Below, one piece after another: positions 22,173 through 48,334 of a DNA stretch of 51,876 nt. The notes beneath the pieces are model-generated. The model saw only the letters and a program-made list of their open reading frames with translations, did no database searches and was not told the DNA's origin. The first letter of the stretch is position 1; the number at the start of each line of letters is the position of its first letter. The DNA is from Candidatus Parvarchaeota archaeon (lineage in GTDB: Archaea; Nanobdellota; Nanobdellia; CSSed11-243R1). The translations under genes and the position numbers were made by a program. The stretch is taken from the NCBI GenBank assembly GCA_015522785.1, contig WALP01000001.1:1-51876 (forward strand). The letters are read 5' to 3'.

Positions 22173-22540
22173 AAGAAATAGACGAATTGATTGATGTAAT
22201 CAACGAAACTTTAAGAAAGTGCCCGTGGTTAAAAGAGCAAACGATATACTCCCTAAAAGGTGAGCCGCTTAATGAGGCGCGCGAAGTCAAGGAAGCAATT
22301 GAGAACAATGACATGGACAACTTTGAAGAAGAGATAGGAGACTTAATTTATGACGCGCTTCTGATTCTTGCGGTTGCCGAAAAGCAAGGGATAACCAACT
22401 ACCATAACGTTTTGAAGAGGGTTATTGAAAAGATAAAGCGGCGCAAGCCATGGGTGTTCGGTGATGAGAAAGTTTCAACAGCGGAAGAAGCCGCCCGAAG
22501 ATGGTATGAGATAAAAAAAGAGGAAAAAAATCATAAGTAA
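22169..22540 (+). CDS. MazG-like nucleotide pyrophosphohydrolase
   Basis: An all-alpha NTP pyrophosphohydrolase of 123 residues. Metal-binding acidic residues lie in [13 protein letters not shown] and [12 protein letters not shown], matching the MazG ExxE...ExxD pattern. The C-terminal [22 protein letters not shown] resembles the end of bacterial MazG (VFGD.....EEV...W). The GTG start at 22169 overlaps the zinc-ribbon gene's stop. It probably hydrolyses non-canonical or excess NTPs. The 3' end overlaps convergent metK by 10 bp. Confidence 0.85.
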
Positions 22541-23664
22541 TGTCTTACTTCGTTTATTTTATCTGTTTTCTCCCACGGGAATCCTTTTCTGCCGAAGTGT
22601 CCATACGCCGCGGTTTTTCTGTAAATAGGGTTCTGTAATTTCAGTTGTTTGATTATTGCTCCCGGGCGCATATCAAAAACTTTTTTCACGATTCCAATCA
22701 ATTTTTCGTCTGAGATTATTCCCGTGTTGAATGAATTTACCATTACTGAAACAGGCTTTGAAACGCCGATAGCATAGGCAATCTGCACCTCGACTTTTTC
22801 GGCAAGCTTTGCCGCGACAAGATTTTTCGCTATATACCTCGCCATGTAACTTCCGCTCCTGTCAACTTTTGACGGGTCCTTTCCGGAGAAGCATCCTCCA
22901 CCATGGGCGCCAAATCCACCATATGTATCAACTATTATTTTTCTTCCAGTGAGTCCCGTGTCCGCTGCTGGTCCGCCTATGACAAATCTTCCAGTGGGGT
23001 TTATGTAGAATTTTGTTTTCTTATCAATCCAATCTTTCGCGACAGGAGAAATTACTTTGTCAATTATTTCTTTTCTTATCTTTTTGTTCTTGACTTTTGG
23101 AGAATGCTGAGTTGAAACAACAATTGTGTCTATCCTGACAGGCTTTCCGTTTTTGTATTCGACTGTAACCTGCGACTTCCCGTCTGGGCGCACCCAGTCA
23201 AGTATTTTTTTCTTCCTGACTTCCGCGAGGCGCATCGCAATTTTGTGCGCCATCATTATGGGTAAAGGCATTAATTCTTTTGTTTCGTTGGTGGCATAAC
23301 CGAACATTAAACCCTGGTCTCCGGCGCCCATCTCCTTCTTAATGACGCCCCTTGCTATGTCCGGCGACTGTTCATGCAGTGCAGTCAGGACCGCGATTGA
23401 GTCAAAATCAAATCCATATTCGGGATTGTCATACCCAACTTCATGGACAACTTTTCTTGCAGTTCCTTGAACATCGACATATCCCTTGGTGCTGACTTCT
23501 CCGGCAACGAGTATGAGTCCACGCGTCGCGAGAGTTTCGACGGCAACTTTAGAGTTTTTGTCCTGTTTTATCAGCTTATCGAGTATTTCGTCAGAAATTT
23601 GGTCGCACAATTTGTCAGGGTGTCCTTCCGTCACAGATTCCGAAGTAAATAAGTATTTTGCCAT
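22531..23664 (-). CDS. metK: S-adenosylmethionine synthetase, bacterial type
   Basis: Makes S-adenosylmethionine from ATP and methionine. The N-terminus [25 protein letters not shown], the block [17 protein letters not shown], and [29 protein letters not shown] are the bacterial/eukaryotic MetK signatures. Most archaea instead use the divergent archaeal MAT. At 377 residues it has normal length. The start is the ATG at 23664, where the conserved N-terminus begins; the frame extends 24 codons upstream but through the promoter. Confidence 0.97.
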
Positions 23665-23697: not shown

Positions 23698-23728
23698 TCC
23701 ATTTCCTACCTTATGGCCCGGTAGCTTA

Positions 23729-23782
23729 ACAAGCACCCTTCTTAAAAAGAAGCGTGCACGGAAGAAGTGGTGTTTGGGTGAA
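23729..23782 (+). other. Putative D-loop intron of tRNA-Ile
   Basis: About 54 nt inserted in the D loop (borders +/-2). It contains element copy A. AAGCACC plus CTTCTT (23731-23743) can pair with AAGAAG plus GGTGTTT (23762-23775) with one bulged T, giving about 13 base pairs. I could not draw a canonical bulge-helix-bulge. GCTT/AAGC (23724-23727 with 23781-23784) could serve as the short exon-intron helix of a relaxed motif. Confidence 0.6.
23734..23768 (+). repeat. X-X'-TGCAC-X'' element, copy A (inside the tRNA)
   Basis: X CTTCTT (23738-23743), 3-nt A loop, X' AAGAAG (23747-23752), core CGTGCACGG, X'' AAGAAG (23762-23767). X can pair with X' or, more extensively, with X'' plus flanking CACC/GGTG. 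The first 33 nt match copy B with one mismatch. Confidence 0.75.
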
Positions 23783-23807
23783 GCCTGGTTGGAGCGCTGG
23801 TCTTATA

Positions 23808-23838
23808 TGACGCCTGTGGGTTACCTCAGGTCTCAGAA
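23808..23838 (+). other. Putative anticodon-loop intron of tRNA-Ile
   Basis: About 31 nt at the canonical 37/38 position (borders +/-2). It folds through CCTG (23813-23816) with CAGG (23827-23830) and an inner GG/CC pair. TGA (23808-23810) can pair with TCA (23833-23835). The bulge-helix-bulge is not textbook, so exact cut sites and even anticodon assignment need confirmation. Confidence 0.65.
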
Positions 23839-23876
23839 AACCAGAGGTCCGGAGTTCAAATCTCCGCCGGGCCATA

Positions 23877-23911
23877 CACCCTTCTTAGAAAGAAGCGTGC
23901 ACGGAAGAAAT
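23877..23911 (+). repeat. X-X'-TGCAC-X'' element, copy B (3' of the tRNA)
   Basis: Starts 3 nt after the tRNA. X CTTCTT (23881-23886), loop AGA, X' AAGAAG (23890-23895), core CGTGCACGG, X'' AAGAA(A). It differs from copy A at 23888 (G for A) and at its 3' edge, and lies 143 bp from it. A T-rich stretch follows (23913-23922), so it may act in 3'-end formation. Confidence 0.75.
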
Positions 23912-26955: not shown

Positions 26956-26990
26956 GAAAGAATATATCAGATTAAATATGTTTTTCTTTG
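26956..26990 (+). repeat. Direct repeat bracketing the toxin-antitoxin module, left copy
   Basis: Shares GAA, AGAATATA, AGATTAAATAT and TTTTTCTTT in order with 27542-27576, with only small gaps and a few mismatches. This copy covers the end of the toxin gene and the metG promoter. Confidence 0.6.
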
Positions 26991-27244
26991 TAGATATTCC
27001 GTCGATGTCCTACTTTTTCTACGAAGATTATCTTTTTTTCATGTAATAAAAGTGCTAATATTCTATAGTCCCCAACTTTAAGCTTGTAATCATCGCACCC
27101 TTTTAGCCGTTTGAAAAAGTGTTTTGGGTCTTTGGCAGATTTTTCCAACTTGTCTATAACCCGCTTAGAGATTGTTAAATCAAGATTAGATAAGTCCCTA
27201 AATGCTTCCTCCGAAAGTTCAATTTTCCAAGAAATTTTACTCAC
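26972..27244 (-). CDS. RelE/ParE-type toxin
   Basis: A 90-residue protein of the RelE superfamily. It starts ISWKIELSEEAFRDLSNLD. Mid-chain is FKRLKGCDDYKLKVGDYRILALL and the end is IIFVEKVGHRRNIYK, the typical strand pattern and late basic residues of mRNA-cleaving RelE toxins. The GTG start at 27244 overlaps the antitoxin stop (GTGA), so the two are coupled. Catalytic residues cannot be proven by sight. Confidence 0.88.
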   Translation of the reverse strand: MSKISWKIELSEEAFRDLSNLDLTISKRVIDKLEKSAKDPKHFFKRLKGCDDYKLKVGDYRILALLLHEKKIIFVEKVGHRRNIYKEKHI

Positions 27245-27483
27245 ACCCCTAGTTTAGCTTTAGCCTTGGTTAAGCTTATCTTTTTACCTTTCTTTAGATT
27301 AAGTCTTGCGTTTAGGATACCTATTCTGAATTCTTCAGTATACTCTCCTTCTTCGTCGCCTTTCGGGATTAATTCTAATAATTTCCTTATAATATCATCA
27401 TAAGATTCTTTACTACTCTCTTTTAATTTAGCAAGACTTTTTCTTGTTTCAGGATATATTTGAATACTTGTGTATTCTGCCAT
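27241..27483 (-). CDS. Antitoxin of the RelE pair
   Basis: An 80-residue protein starting MAEYTSIQIYPETRKSLAKLK. The N-terminal strand and helix look like a ribbon-helix-helix DNA-binding unit (TSIQIYPETRKSLAKLKESSKESYDDIIRKLLELI). The basic C-terminal tail (LNLKKGKKISLTKAKAKLG) should wrap the toxin. ATG 27483 follows a GGTGAT ribosome-binding site. Likely autorepressor through the inverted AT-rich sites just upstream. Confidence 0.82.
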   Translation of the reverse strand: MAEYTSIQIYPETRKSLAKLKESSKESYDDIIRKLLELIPKGDEEGEYTEEFRIGILNARLNLKKGKKISLTKAKAKLGV

Positions 27484-27492
27484 TATCATCAC

Positions 27493-27541: not shown

Positions 27542-27576
27542 GAAAAGAATATAAGATTAAATATATTTTTCTTTTT
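27542..27576 (+). repeat. Direct repeat bracketing the toxin-antitoxin module, right copy
   Basis: Partner of 26956-26990, 586 bp away in the same orientation. This copy carries the AT-rich promoter sequence of proS and ends just before its ATG. Confidence 0.6.
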
Positions 27577-27577
27577 G

Positions 27578-29074
27578 ATGGCAAAGGACAAGTTACAGGG
27601 AATTACTGTCGGCAAGAAAAATTTCAGCGAGTGGTACGAACAGGTAGTTTTGAAATGCGGGCTCGCGGACAAGCGCCTGGAGAATTCCAGAGGATTTTAT
27701 GGATACCCCCCATGGGGCTCAAAAATTTTGAGGGAGGTAGAACGCCTTTTTGAAAGCGAGCTTATCGAAAAGGAACATTCTCCAATCAGGACTCCGACCG
27801 CAATTCCGGTCACACTTCTTGAAAAGGAGAAGGAGCACGCGACAGGTTTCGCACCGGAAGTTTTTATGATAACTAAGGGGCATGGCGGCAAGGATTTGGA
27901 AATACCAAAAGTTCTCCGCCCGACAGGCGAAGCTGTTATGTATCCCTACTTCAGCTATTGGATTCAAACCTACAAAGACTTACCTTTCAAGGTTTTTGAA
28001 ACGCGCCCGTCATTCCGCGCCGAAAGGACAAATGCGATTTTCCCGTTGTTGAGGACGGCAGAGTTCTTTTGGATAGAGTCTCACACCGCTCAGGTTTCAA
28101 ACGATGACGCAGACAAGCAGGTGAAGGAAGACATGACAATTTTCAAGAAAGTTGTCGAGGACAATTTGGCAATACCTTTCATGCTTTTCAAGCGCCCGGA
28201 GTGGGACAAGTTCGCGGGGGCGGAATATACATGTGCTTATGATTCTCCACTTCCTGACGGCAGGATATCGCAGATAGGCACGACTCACAATCTCGGGCTA
28301 AATTTCTCGAAGCCGTTTGACGTTACATATGTTGACAAGAACAACAAAAAGCAGTTCTGCCACCAGACTTCTTTCGGAATGGGTGTAAGCAAAATACTCG
28401 GGATGCTTGCGGCGATTCACGGCGACGACAACGGATTAGTATTGCCGCCAAAAGTAGCTCCGATACAAATAGTGATTGTCCCAATTTATTACAAGGACGA
28501 CGAAAAGGAAGCGGCGCTCAGGCTCGCCAACAGCGTTAAGTCAAAGCTGAAAAAATTTAGGATAAAAATTGATTCGCGCGACAACTATTCGCCGGGATGG
28601 AAATTCAACGAGTGGGAAATGAAGGGTGTTCCAATCAGGATTGAGATAGGTCCTAAAGATGTCGAGAAAAACCAAGTTGTTTTGGTAAGGCGCTTTGACA
28701 GGAACAAAGAATTCATTCCAATTAGTGATTTGAGCTCAAAAACCATTGAAAAGAAGTTTGAGGAAATTACCGAGCTTATGTTCGCGAAGGCTGAGGAAAA
28801 CTTCAAGCGCGCGAAGGCAGACAGTTTTGAAGGTATTTTGAAAGAGATAAATGCAGGAATCCATCTTGTTGAAATCCCATTTTGCAACTCACAGAAATGC
28901 GTTGAAAAGCTTAAGGAAGAAACAATCAAGGTTAGGGGAGTTCAGCTTTTTGCCAACGGCGAAAAGTCCGTCGAGGAGAGCGTTGAAACTTCAAGGAAGG
29001 CAGCAAAAGGCAAGAAATGCGCAGTTTGCGGAAAGCCAGCAAAGGAAATTGTCTGGGTAGCTCGTCAATATTAA
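27578..29074 (+). CDS. proS: Prolyl-tRNA synthetase (archaeal/eukaryotic type)
   Basis: Class II synthetase of 498 residues. Motif 1 region: GEAVMYPYFSYWIQTYKDLPFKVF. Motif 2: RPSFRAERTNAIFPLLRTAEFFW. Motif 3: GMGVSKILGMLAAIHGDDNGLVLPP. The anticodon domain is followed by the zinc-binding extension (CNSQKC...CAVCG) and a terminal WVARQY, as in archaeal/eukaryotic-type ProRS. The ATG at 27578 is chosen over TTG 27575. A structured X-X'-X'' element begins 3 nt after its stop. Confidence 0.96.
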   Translation: MAKDKLQGITVGKKNFSEWYEQVVLKCGLADKRLENSRGFYGYPPWGSKILREVERLFESELIEKEHSPIRTPTAIPVTLLEKEKEHATGFAPEVFMITKGHGGKDLEIPKVLRPTGEAVMYPYFSYWIQTYKDLPFKVFETRPSFRAERTNAIFPLLRTAEFFWIESHTAQVSNDDADKQVKEDMTIFKKVVEDNLAIPFMLFKRPEWDKFAGAEYTCAYDSPLPDGRISQIGTTHNLGLNFSKPFDVTYVDKNNKKQFCHQTSFGMGVSKILGMLAAIHGDDNGLVLPPKVAPIQIVIVPIYYKDDEKEAALRLANSVKSKLKKFRIKIDSRDNYSPGWKFNEWEMKGVPIRIEIGPKDVEKNQVVLVRRFDRNKEFIPISDLSSKTIEKKFEEITELMFAKAEENFKRAKADSFEGILKEINAGIHLVEIPFCNSQKCVEKLKEETIKVRGVQLFANGEKSVEESVETSRKAAKGKKCAVCGKPAKEIVWVARQY

Positions 29075-29077
29075 CAT

Positions 29078-29119
29078 CTTTCTCTTAAAGGGAGAAAGCT
29101 GTACCAAAGAGAATTTTTT
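29078..29119 (+). repeat. X-X'-TGTAC-X'' element, copy C (3' of proS)
   Basis: X CTTTCTCTT (29078-29086), loop AAA, X' GGGAGAAAG (29090-29098; 9 bp including two G-T pairs), core CTGTACC, X'' AAAGAGAA (29106-29113), then TTTTTT (29114-29119). X and X'' also pair over 7-8 bp. The core has T for C compared with the other copies. Confidence 0.65.
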
Positions 29120-47243: not shown

Positions 47244-48260
47244 ATGGAATGGAAGGATAAATTCGAATTGGCGAAGCAGAACACAAAGGAAATTCTCACT
47301 GAAGATGAACTGAGGGAACTGCTGAAGACAAAAAGCAATCCTACTGCGTATTGGGGAATTGCCCCAACAGGACCAGTTCATATGGGTTATCTAGCAACAA
47401 TGGGCAAGATTTTCGATTTCAGCAAGGCAGGAATAAAGACGAAAATAATGATTGCCGACATACACGCCGCGCTTGATGACTTGAAAACCCCATGGGACGA
47501 AATTCAAAAGAGAAGGGAGTATGTGAAAAAATGCCTAGAGCTAGCGATTCCGTGGAAAACAAAGCCGGAATTTGTCTTTGGCTCTGACTTCGAGCTCACA
47601 AGGGAATACCAGGCAGACATCCTGAAGCTTTCATCTTTCACGACAGTCAAGAGGGCGACAAGGGCGGCGTCAGAAGTCACTAGGATGAAAAACCCAAAGG
47701 TTTCTGAATTAATTTACCCTGTGATGCAGGCGCTCGACGAGGAATACCTAAAAGTTGACATACAGCTTGGCGGCATAGACCAGCGACACATTCTTGCGTA
47801 TGCAAGGGAGTACCTTCCAAAAGTGGGATACAAATCAAGGGTGGAAGTTATGATGCCGCTGATGGTTAGCCTGAAAGGTCCCGGCGTAAAGATGAGCGCG
47901 TCAATTCCCGAAACGAGCATAAAAGTTCATGATTCCGAGGAAGCAATTCGTGAGAAAATCAAGAAAGCGTATTGTCCGGCAGGTGAGGTGAAGGACAATC
48001 CAATATTACAACTTTACAAATATGTTGTCTTCCCGCTTAAGGGAAGTGTCGAGATAAAGCGCCCTGAAAAATTCGGTGGCGACATAAAATTCGAGTTTTA
48101 TGACGACTTGGAGAGAAAGTTCATTGATAAGGAACTCCACCCGCTGGACATCAAGGCGGCGCTGACAAACGAGCTCGTGAACATCTTCTCCAAAATAAGA
48201 AAGTATTTTGAGGAGCACAAGGATGAACTCGAAGCTCTTGGCGACGCTTTCCTTTCCTAG
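47244..48260 (+). CDS. tyrS: Tyrosyl-tRNA synthetase (archaeal type)
   Basis: Class Ic synthetase of 338 residues. IAPTGPVHMGYL holds the HIGH equivalent (HMGY, 46-49), with tyrosine-binding IQLGGIDQRH, and KMSAS (216-220) as the KMSKS loop. The compact C-terminal helical domain ends KIRKYFEEHKDELEALG. Archaeal/eukaryotic TyrRS reads the C1:G72 pair. Two tandem X-X'-TGCAC-X'' elements begin 3 nt after its stop. Confidence 0.95.
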   Translation: MEWKDKFELAKQNTKEILTEDELRELLKTKSNPTAYWGIAPTGPVHMGYLATMGKIFDFSKAGIKTKIMIADIHAALDDLKTPWDEIQKRREYVKKCLELAIPWKTKPEFVFGSDFELTREYQADILKLSSFTTVKRATRAASEVTRMKNPKVSELIYPVMQALDEEYLKVDIQLGGIDQRHILAYAREYLPKVGYKSRVEVMMPLMVSLKGPGVKMSASIPETSIKVHDSEEAIREKIKKAYCPAGEVKDNPILQLYKYVVFPLKGSVEIKRPEKFGGDIKFEFYDDLERKFIDKELHPLDIKAALTNELVNIFSKIRKYFEEHKDELEALGDAFLS

Positions 48261-48263
48261 TAC

Positions 48264-48295
48264 CTTTCTTAAGAAGAAAGCTGCACTAAAGAAAG
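48264..48295 (+). repeat. X-X'-TGCAC-X'' element, copy D (3' of tyrS)
   Basis: X CTTTCTT (48264-48270), loop AAG, X' AAGAAAG (48274-48280), core CTGCACTA, X'' AAGAAAG (48289-48295). X' and X'' are identical 7-mers, both complementary to X. Confidence 0.75.
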
Positions 48296-48298
48296 CAC

Positions 48299-48334
48299 TT
48301 TCTCTTTAGAAAAGAGAAACTGCACTAAGAGAAA
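48299..48334 (+). repeat. X-X'-TGCAC-X'' element, copy E (3' of tyrS, tandem)
   Basis: X TTTCTCTTT (48299-48307), loop AGA, X' AAAGAGAAA (48311-48319), core CTGCACT, X'' AAGAGAAA (48327-48334). The stem sequence differs from copy D, but X' and X'' have changed together with X. It lies between convergent tyrS and lhr. Confidence 0.75.

Follow-up and report, generated by a model that had tools for sequence, protein, structure and literature searches.

Two described systems are among the closest to the elements reported here. The BoxC/PIT/TM-ECO repeats of Enterobacteria, including E. coli, are class II purine-motif intrastrand triplex repeats with a G/C-rich consensus (CCCTCNCCC...); they are reported to be always intergenic, and are not reported from stop codons or from genes for tRNA or rRNA (PMC4666352). 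According to that source, which cites a 1994 study, purine-motif triplexes form in single-stranded DNA and not in RNA. The second system is the bulge-helix-bulge (BHB) intron of Archaea. Large-scale transposition of tRNA introns is known in Thermoproteales (PMC4033280, PMC4090602), and its mechanism is stated to be unknown (PMC4090602).

Further small elements and folds offer points of comparison. Rickettsia palindromic elements are small, mobile and palindromic, and insert in frame in protein genes and also in RNA genes. ENE/MALAT1-type RNA triple helices combine a pair of U-rich strands with a single A-rich one (U.A-U).

Here we describe a family of archaeal elements of about 40 nt (about 35–45 nt) that resembles BoxC/PIT/TM-ECO in carrying, on one strand, a pyrimidine stem, a short loop, a purine stem, a linker and a mirrored purine stem, and in being a dispersed intergenic repeat of about 37–40 nt that is patchy between close relatives. 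This layout is that of the class II intrastrand triplex of Hoyne/Maher and Holder et al., and the claim of a preliminary description that no described element has this architecture is contradicted by the BoxC/PIT repeats (PMC4666352). Unlike BoxC, the elements are A/T-rich and have a lower stem with a pyrimidine mismatch, and their many different pyrimidine strands are T-rich (CTTTCTTT, CTTTTCTT and others) and do not match the BoxC consensus CCCTCNCCCN3-6GGGNGAGGGN3GGGNGAGGG. Against the ITxF loop range of 1–6 nt, the first loop is mostly 3 nt long, and the second, which holds a strand of the lower stem, 6–8 nt, so that it touches or exceeds the upper bound.

What the family has in common with archaeal BHB introns, including those of Thermoproteales, is the presence of short inserts in tRNA and rRNA genes with otherwise intact exons, at canonical as well as non-canonical positions and with several in one tRNA, together with exon:intron complementarity and spread between sites; unlike those introns as described, its members have a common internal three-strand module, and relatives in intergenic DNA and in proteins. 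They are shorter than Rickettsia palindromic elements, are archaeal and not bacterial, and possess a mirror third strand that the Rickettsia elements lack. Like REP/RAYT repeats and MITEs they are dispersed hairpin repeats, and the ANME-1 element occurs within a MITE-like unit with inverted repeats; unlike the situation in REP/RAYT systems, the DPANN hosts have no Y1 transposase. The copies at stop codons, and only these, recall ENE/MALAT1 as three-strand elements near an RNA 3' end, but with one pyrimidine and two purine strands. In the literature covered, which is partial and leaves novelty provisional, we found no description of the family and none joining triplex repeats and transposed introns.

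Five elements in the window

The window, which is the whole 51,876-nt stretch analysed here, belongs to the small genome of a DPANN archaeon and contains five elements (Table 1). The preliminary description had located five copies with the order X, loop, X', core and X'', and all were found with this layout; R1, a covariance model built from 13 copies other than these five, recovers those at 48260-48295 and 29074-29113. The proposed TGCAC core consists mostly of the 3' strand of the lower stem plus the linker.

Table 1. Elements of the window and the interrupted tRNA gene, with strand segments of each element
Feature	Position	Strand	Context	Lower stem	X	Loop	X'	Linker	X''	Model match and remarks
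tRNA-Ile gene, anticodon UAU	23715..23874	+								Rfam RF00005, 45.8 bits, E 5.6e-9; inserts of 61 and 32 positions
Element 1, element class II	23733..23767	+	D loop of tRNA-Ile	GCAC/GTGC, C.C mismatch	CTTCTT 23738-23743	AAA	AAGAAG 23747-23752	ACG	GAAGAA 23761-23766	
Element 2, element class II	23877..23909	+	2 nt 3' of tRNA-Ile	CAC/GTG	CTTCTT 23881-23886		23890-23895		GAAGAA 23904-23909	
Element 3, element class I	29074..29113	+	one-base overlap with proS TAA stop (ORF 27575-29074)	ACA/TGT	CTTTCTC(TT)		GAGAAAG	ACC	AAAGAGAA	R1 E 2.7e-5
Element 4, element class I	48260..48295	+	one-base overlap with tyrS TAG stop (ORF 47244-48260)	GTA/TGC	CTTTCTT 48264-48270	AAG	AAGAAAG 48274-48280	ACT	AAAGAA 48288-48293	R1 E 8.7e-8
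Element 5, element class I	48295..48334	+	tandem with element 4	GCA/TGC	TTTCTCTTT 48299-48307	AGA	AAAGAGAAA 48311-48319	ACT	AAGAGAAA 48327-48334	

The tRNA-Ile had been identified correctly. Its D loop is split by element 1 and its anticodon by a separate, ordinary intron. ARAGORN detected no tRNA in the window, missing this interrupted gene, and assigned no single clear isotype to the virtually spliced sequence; the Rfam match settled the case. Relative G002 carries the same element as element 1 in the same tRNA site, and at the proS stop codon of relative G001 an element occupies the place of element 3 with its lower stem changed to AAA/TTT.

Two other features of the window were observed. 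The S-adenosylmethionine synthetase adjoining the tRNA (22531-23661) resembles the bacterial MetK type and not the archaeal type, and a small gene pair on the minus strand (26972-27492) resembles a RelE-type toxin with its antitoxin.

Anatomy and range of the family

Each element consists of a lower stem, a pyrimidine mismatch, the X:X' hairpin, a linker and X''. The lower stem measures 3 bp in element class I (GCA/TGC, CGA/TCG, AAA/TTT and others) and about 4 bp in element class II (GCAC/GTGC, CAAC/GTTG, CAGC/GCTG, CAAG/CTTG and others), and the 1x1 pyrimidine mismatch that separates it from X:X' is C.C in 155 of 183 elements. The upper stem has 6–12 bp, with X the pyrimidine strand and a loop of mostly 3 nt; the linker is ACC in 84 of 100 elements of class I and NNCGG, NNCGA or NNGGG in most of class II. 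G-U pairs are almost absent (6 of 1390 upper-stem and 5 of 549 lower-stem pairs), in keeping with folding as DNA or with strict demands of a triplex.

The genome to which the window belongs carries about 60 copies: 63 full elements were counted in 335 kb of stretches, a few of them doubled where stretches overlap. Six second-order Markov shuffles of the same sequence yielded no element, and neither did control patterns read backwards. A covariance-model search, of the kind that the preliminary description had proposed, revealed many further copies, both here (78 R1 matches at E<=1, some being partial matches on the opposite strand) and in two congeners, AUK188 and Dive96_bin10.467 by their matches, with 95 and 106 matches at E<=0.5. 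At E<=1e-3, R1 matched 53 of 280 genomes of the class; at E<=1e-4 it matched 38 of 245 in the phylum containing the Micrarchaeum genome and 46 of 58 in the ANME-1 class, where single genomes had up to 113 matches. The family thus extends to other Nanobdellota, Micrarchaeota, Diapherotrites and ANME-1, with tens to more than 100 copies per genome in several lineages of very small archaea and in the methane oxidisers; among 20 control genomes of other groups, 19 gave no match and one gave a single weak match (E 5.5e-4).

No Rfam family scored above its gathering score at the elements. Bacterial matches from a pattern scan of GTDB were attributed to chance, falling in lysine/alanine-rich coding repeats, and viral carriage was set aside when two exact patterns gave no match in IMG/VR. 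A third subtype, seen in L002 (about 1590-1640) and in T loops of G000:C11, C26 and C29, has CCTGTGCT or CCTGCGCT as its core, with strands such as TTTCTCTCTT in the place of X, and is near-identical in many T loops (for example CACTTTCTCTCTTTGAAAAGAGAGAACCTGCGCTAAGAGAGAAACTTGG); it escaped the element scanner because its mismatch is 1x2.

The third strand mirrors X'

The relation of X'' to the hairpin was measured in 134 distinct elements picked by hairpin, mismatch, lower stem and linker, with X'' ignored. In 121 of them X'' is exactly X' read backwards from the stem base, in a single fixed register. Counted by position, 875 of 904 (97%) agree, compared with 736 +/- 11 (maximum 774) when X'' strands were dealt among elements of equal class and length, and G stands over G 137 times against 69 +/- 5 in the shuffles; other registers give a match of about 0.4–0.7. 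A model or a pattern containing an A-rich X'' had served to fetch some of the loci; since neither ties X'' to X', selection does not bias the shuffle test, though kinship between copies remains.

These results uphold the earlier claim that X, X' and X'' covary, and they change its form. X'' had been taken for a second complement of X, with two competing Watson-Crick helices as the general rule; it is instead a mirror of X', and among 87 discriminating elements the exact fixed-register mirror holds in 77 and a direct repeat, in any register, in 34. The cleanest case is L036 of Diapherotrites, in which three copies have three different 12-nt X strands (CTTTTTCTTTCT, CTTTTCTTTTCT and CTTTCTTTTTCT), each with a perfect 11-nt mirror (AAAAAGAAAGA, AAAAGAAAAGA and AAAGAAAAAGA, respectively). 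In Micrarchaeota the mirror is exact in 12 of 14 elements representing nine different X, and in element class II the base triplet covaries as well, C-G being accompanied by G in 52 of 55 cases and T-A by A in 27 of 28.

A mirror copy cannot be produced by copying a hairpin arm, and in general it cannot form Watson-Crick pairs with X. Judged from sequence, X'' has to be such a mirror if it is to lie antiparallel over X' as a purine third strand, and the layout is that of a class II (Y-R-R) purine-motif intrastrand triplex.

Copies within tRNA and rRNA genes

Placement was assessed with a strict, insert-tolerant tRNA test applied to 183 elements of three congeneric genomes. Of these, 67 are inside tRNA-like genes in the same orientation as the gene and five in the opposite one, four of the five being apparently partners in inverted pairs; random positions scored 8 of 366 by the same test. 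Many cases escape the test, so the actual share is above this figure; inspection by eye puts it at about two thirds in the genome of the window. Most clusters there are inside tRNA genes, with up to three elements per tRNA, and occupy the D loop, the T loop, the anticodon loop or the neighbourhood of the variable region. Copies occur within Rfam-mapped 16S (two in G001) and 23S genes (G001 and G002), and also just 3' of 16S. This intron-like placement in tRNA and rRNA genes, seen for most copies in this genus, had been overlooked in the preliminary description.

Two arrangements were observed alongside. The Rfam-identified RNase P RNA gene of G001 (L288:2409-2744) has an element close to one of its ends, in the opposite orientation. 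In T loops and 23S, elements form inverted head-to-head pairs (G000:C26:5106-5187, G000:C30:24819-24900, L288 and L272) whose X'' strands can pair with each other; the MITE-like unit of ANME-1 has a similar twin layout.

Signs of a splicing fold are present in part of these copies. A clear bulge-helix-bulge is seen at one 16S copy of G001 (GGGATTAGATA/CACC...GGTGCTAAAGA/CCCCGG): two 3-nt bulges flank the helix formed by exon TTAG and insert CTAA, and CACC/GGTG makes up the inner helix. This inner helix draws on the bases of the lower stem, so that the lower-stem fold and the splicing fold are mutually exclusive at this stem. In several T-loop copies, exon TTCAAA pairs with insert TTTGAA. More generally, the 5' arm and the 3' end of the insert pair by at least 6 bp in 42% of tRNA and rRNA copies compared with 16% with shuffled tails; this pairing was found in none of the stop-codon copies and shows no excess in ANME-1 copies. 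A BHB helix is seen in some, not every, intron-located copy. The tRNA splicing endonuclease (PF01974) is present in G001, G002 and others, and gave no match in the genome of the window, which is incomplete (69%). We infer that the tRNA and rRNA copies are spliced out as introns.

Copies at stop codons

Ten elements start within -3 to +2 nt of a co-directional stop codon, compared with 0.6 expected at random positions and 1.9 at random intergenic positions. According to their translations, the hosts are proS (in two species), tyrS, uS7, uS12, uS9, an Asp/Asn-type synthetase, MCM, a deaminase and a coiled-coil protein. In an eleventh host, a cytidylate kinase, the stop falls inside the element; 7 of the 11 are apparently translation genes. 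The link to translation proposed earlier is supported to the extent that the elements occur in tRNA genes and often beside translation genes, but it is not exclusive across the family: MCM-, cytidylate kinase- and deaminase-like hosts are among those at stop codons, and the ANME-1 copies are scattered between genes in all orientations.

A short ORF that precedes a thrS-like gene contains an element at G000:C29:6113 and L281 c14886. The beginning of the thrS-like gene recurs in this ORF in both species (MKLLQWH / MRILQWH), and the arrangement may represent an mRNA intron or a leader peptide. The direct repeat at G000:C29:6113 was considered as a target-site duplication and rejected, since G001 has the same arrangement in diverged form, pointing to an older duplication of the gene start.

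Turnover and dispersal

Matching by upstream flank identified 38 sites common to congener pairs, 20 of which differ in both X and the lower stem. Where the pairs differ, the element class is often different as well, and each copy keeps three matching strands. By sequence comparison, then, the position at shared sites persists while the module is replaced or rewritten.

In ANME-1 the copies are dispersed and intergenic, with the upstream neighbour co-directional in 16 cases and opposite in 21. Many belong to a MITE-like unit, about 130 bp in length and inverted at its ends, and others are solo; in G284 and G291 the ends of this family are GATTACACAGATTT...AATCTTGTG. In one ANME-1 leuS lineage the gene contains a 36-nt in-frame element that is intact in five genomes, partly decayed in three and absent in four; this copy is not an intron. 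Comparison with the empty leuS sites established no target duplication, the relatives being too diverged to reveal one. The absence or decay of the leuS insertion in relatives and the lack of orientation bias in ANME-1 support mobility.

A search for mobilising enzymes found none. The Y1 transposase (PF01797) is absent from the DPANN hosts G000, G001, G002, G281 and G283, which led us to reject mobilisation by RAYT in DPANN; in ANME-1 it is present in some genomes and absent from G544, which carries elements.

Discussion

The explanation we favour, and consider probable, is that the family is a small mobile element of DNA whose strand takes a triplex-type fold and which RNA genes tolerate through bulge-helix-bulge splicing. 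The sequences themselves establish the family, the covariation of its three strands in a fixed register, its gene contexts, and insertions set against empty sites in relatives; formation of the triplex, its formation in DNA, splicing of the tRNA and rRNA copies and the mode of movement are inferred. X and X' would form a hairpin closed below by the short lower stem with its pyrimidine mismatch, and X'' would return up the groove as a third strand mirroring X', A over A-T and G over G-C. The selected fold would most likely be that of the single-stranded DNA of the Y-R-R strand, serving the element's own spread, and new sites would be entered at the DNA level. Survivors in DPANN would be mostly those insertions that the cell can neutralise: in many tRNA and rRNA copies the 5' arm of the lower stem would re-pair with the 3' end of the insert, creating a bulge-helix-bulge and allowing excision as an intron, and insertions at stop codons would be tolerated since no coding sequence is lost. 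Its ANME-1 form is an intergenic repeat that in some cases belongs to a MITE-like unit and in others is carried in frame by a protein gene. Several observations run counter to this account. The strong sense orientation in tRNA genes and at stop codons would not be required of a purely DNA-level element; conservation in place at proS in two species suggests that some copies are useful; a bulge-helix-bulge helix was seen in some and not all intron-located copies; and the analysis established no target-site duplication and found no mobilising enzyme.

The main rival places the selected fold in RNA, with X'' docking on the X:X' hairpin of the transcript through purine-motif or minor-groove triples, so that a compact knot steers intron folding and protects mRNA 3' ends right behind the stop codon. 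We judge it unlikely. It would account for the strand bias in tRNA-like genes (67 vs 5), for the sharp peak at co-directional stop codons and for the share of translation-like genes among their hosts. In RNA folds computed without a triplex, X:X' and the lower stem prevail in 10–11 of 11 stop-codon copies, and the proS element is kept in two species with a changed lower stem. On the other side stand the statement cited in PMC4666352 that purine-motif triplexes do not form in RNA, the lack of orientation bias in ANME-1 and the preference of the 5' arm for the insert's 3' end in 49 of 67 folds in tRNA context, which would disrupt the knot. In its most specific form we hold this proposal to be likewise unlikely: a natural purine-motif (R.R-Y) triplex in RNA around which tRNA and rRNA introns fold and which also serves, across several archaeal phyla, as a cap directly behind stop codons. 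Given the statement in PMC4666352, to find such a triplex at work in the RNA of a cell would be the greater surprise.

An RNA switch in which X pairs with either X' or X'', as a regulated terminator or a splicing switch, is very improbable. X'' can pair with X in some copies, and the tRNA-located folds show near-equal preference for X:X' (28 of 67) and X:X'' (25 of 67), so that competition for X may occur inside some introns according to these predictions. However, the constrained relation is the mirror and not the complement (77 vs 34 of 87), X:X'' is preferred in 0 of 11 stop-codon copies, and the elements have no ligand, common gene class or consistent U-tract. For the terminator of the preliminary description we found no evidence, and the ANME-1 copies point both ways relative to genes. 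About as improbable are ordinary archaeal tRNA introns sharing sequence through past transposition, with the triplex pattern as a low-complexity by-product: intron transposition on a large scale has its precedent in Thermoproteales, but the G positions of X'' track those of X' far beyond shuffles, and ANME-1 copies are intergenic and in-frame insertions and not tRNA introns.

A mobile DNA element of the kind we favour would connect triplex-type DNA repeats and archaeal introns, which have so far been described separately. For the archaea that carry it, the inserts mean that standard tools miss many tRNA genes. The many different, self-consistent three-strand copies constitute a natural mutagenesis set for the question of whether purine-motif triplexes work in cells, and a single family that appears, by lineage, as an intergenic repeat, an in-frame protein insert or an intron-like insert would offer a testable route of intron gain.
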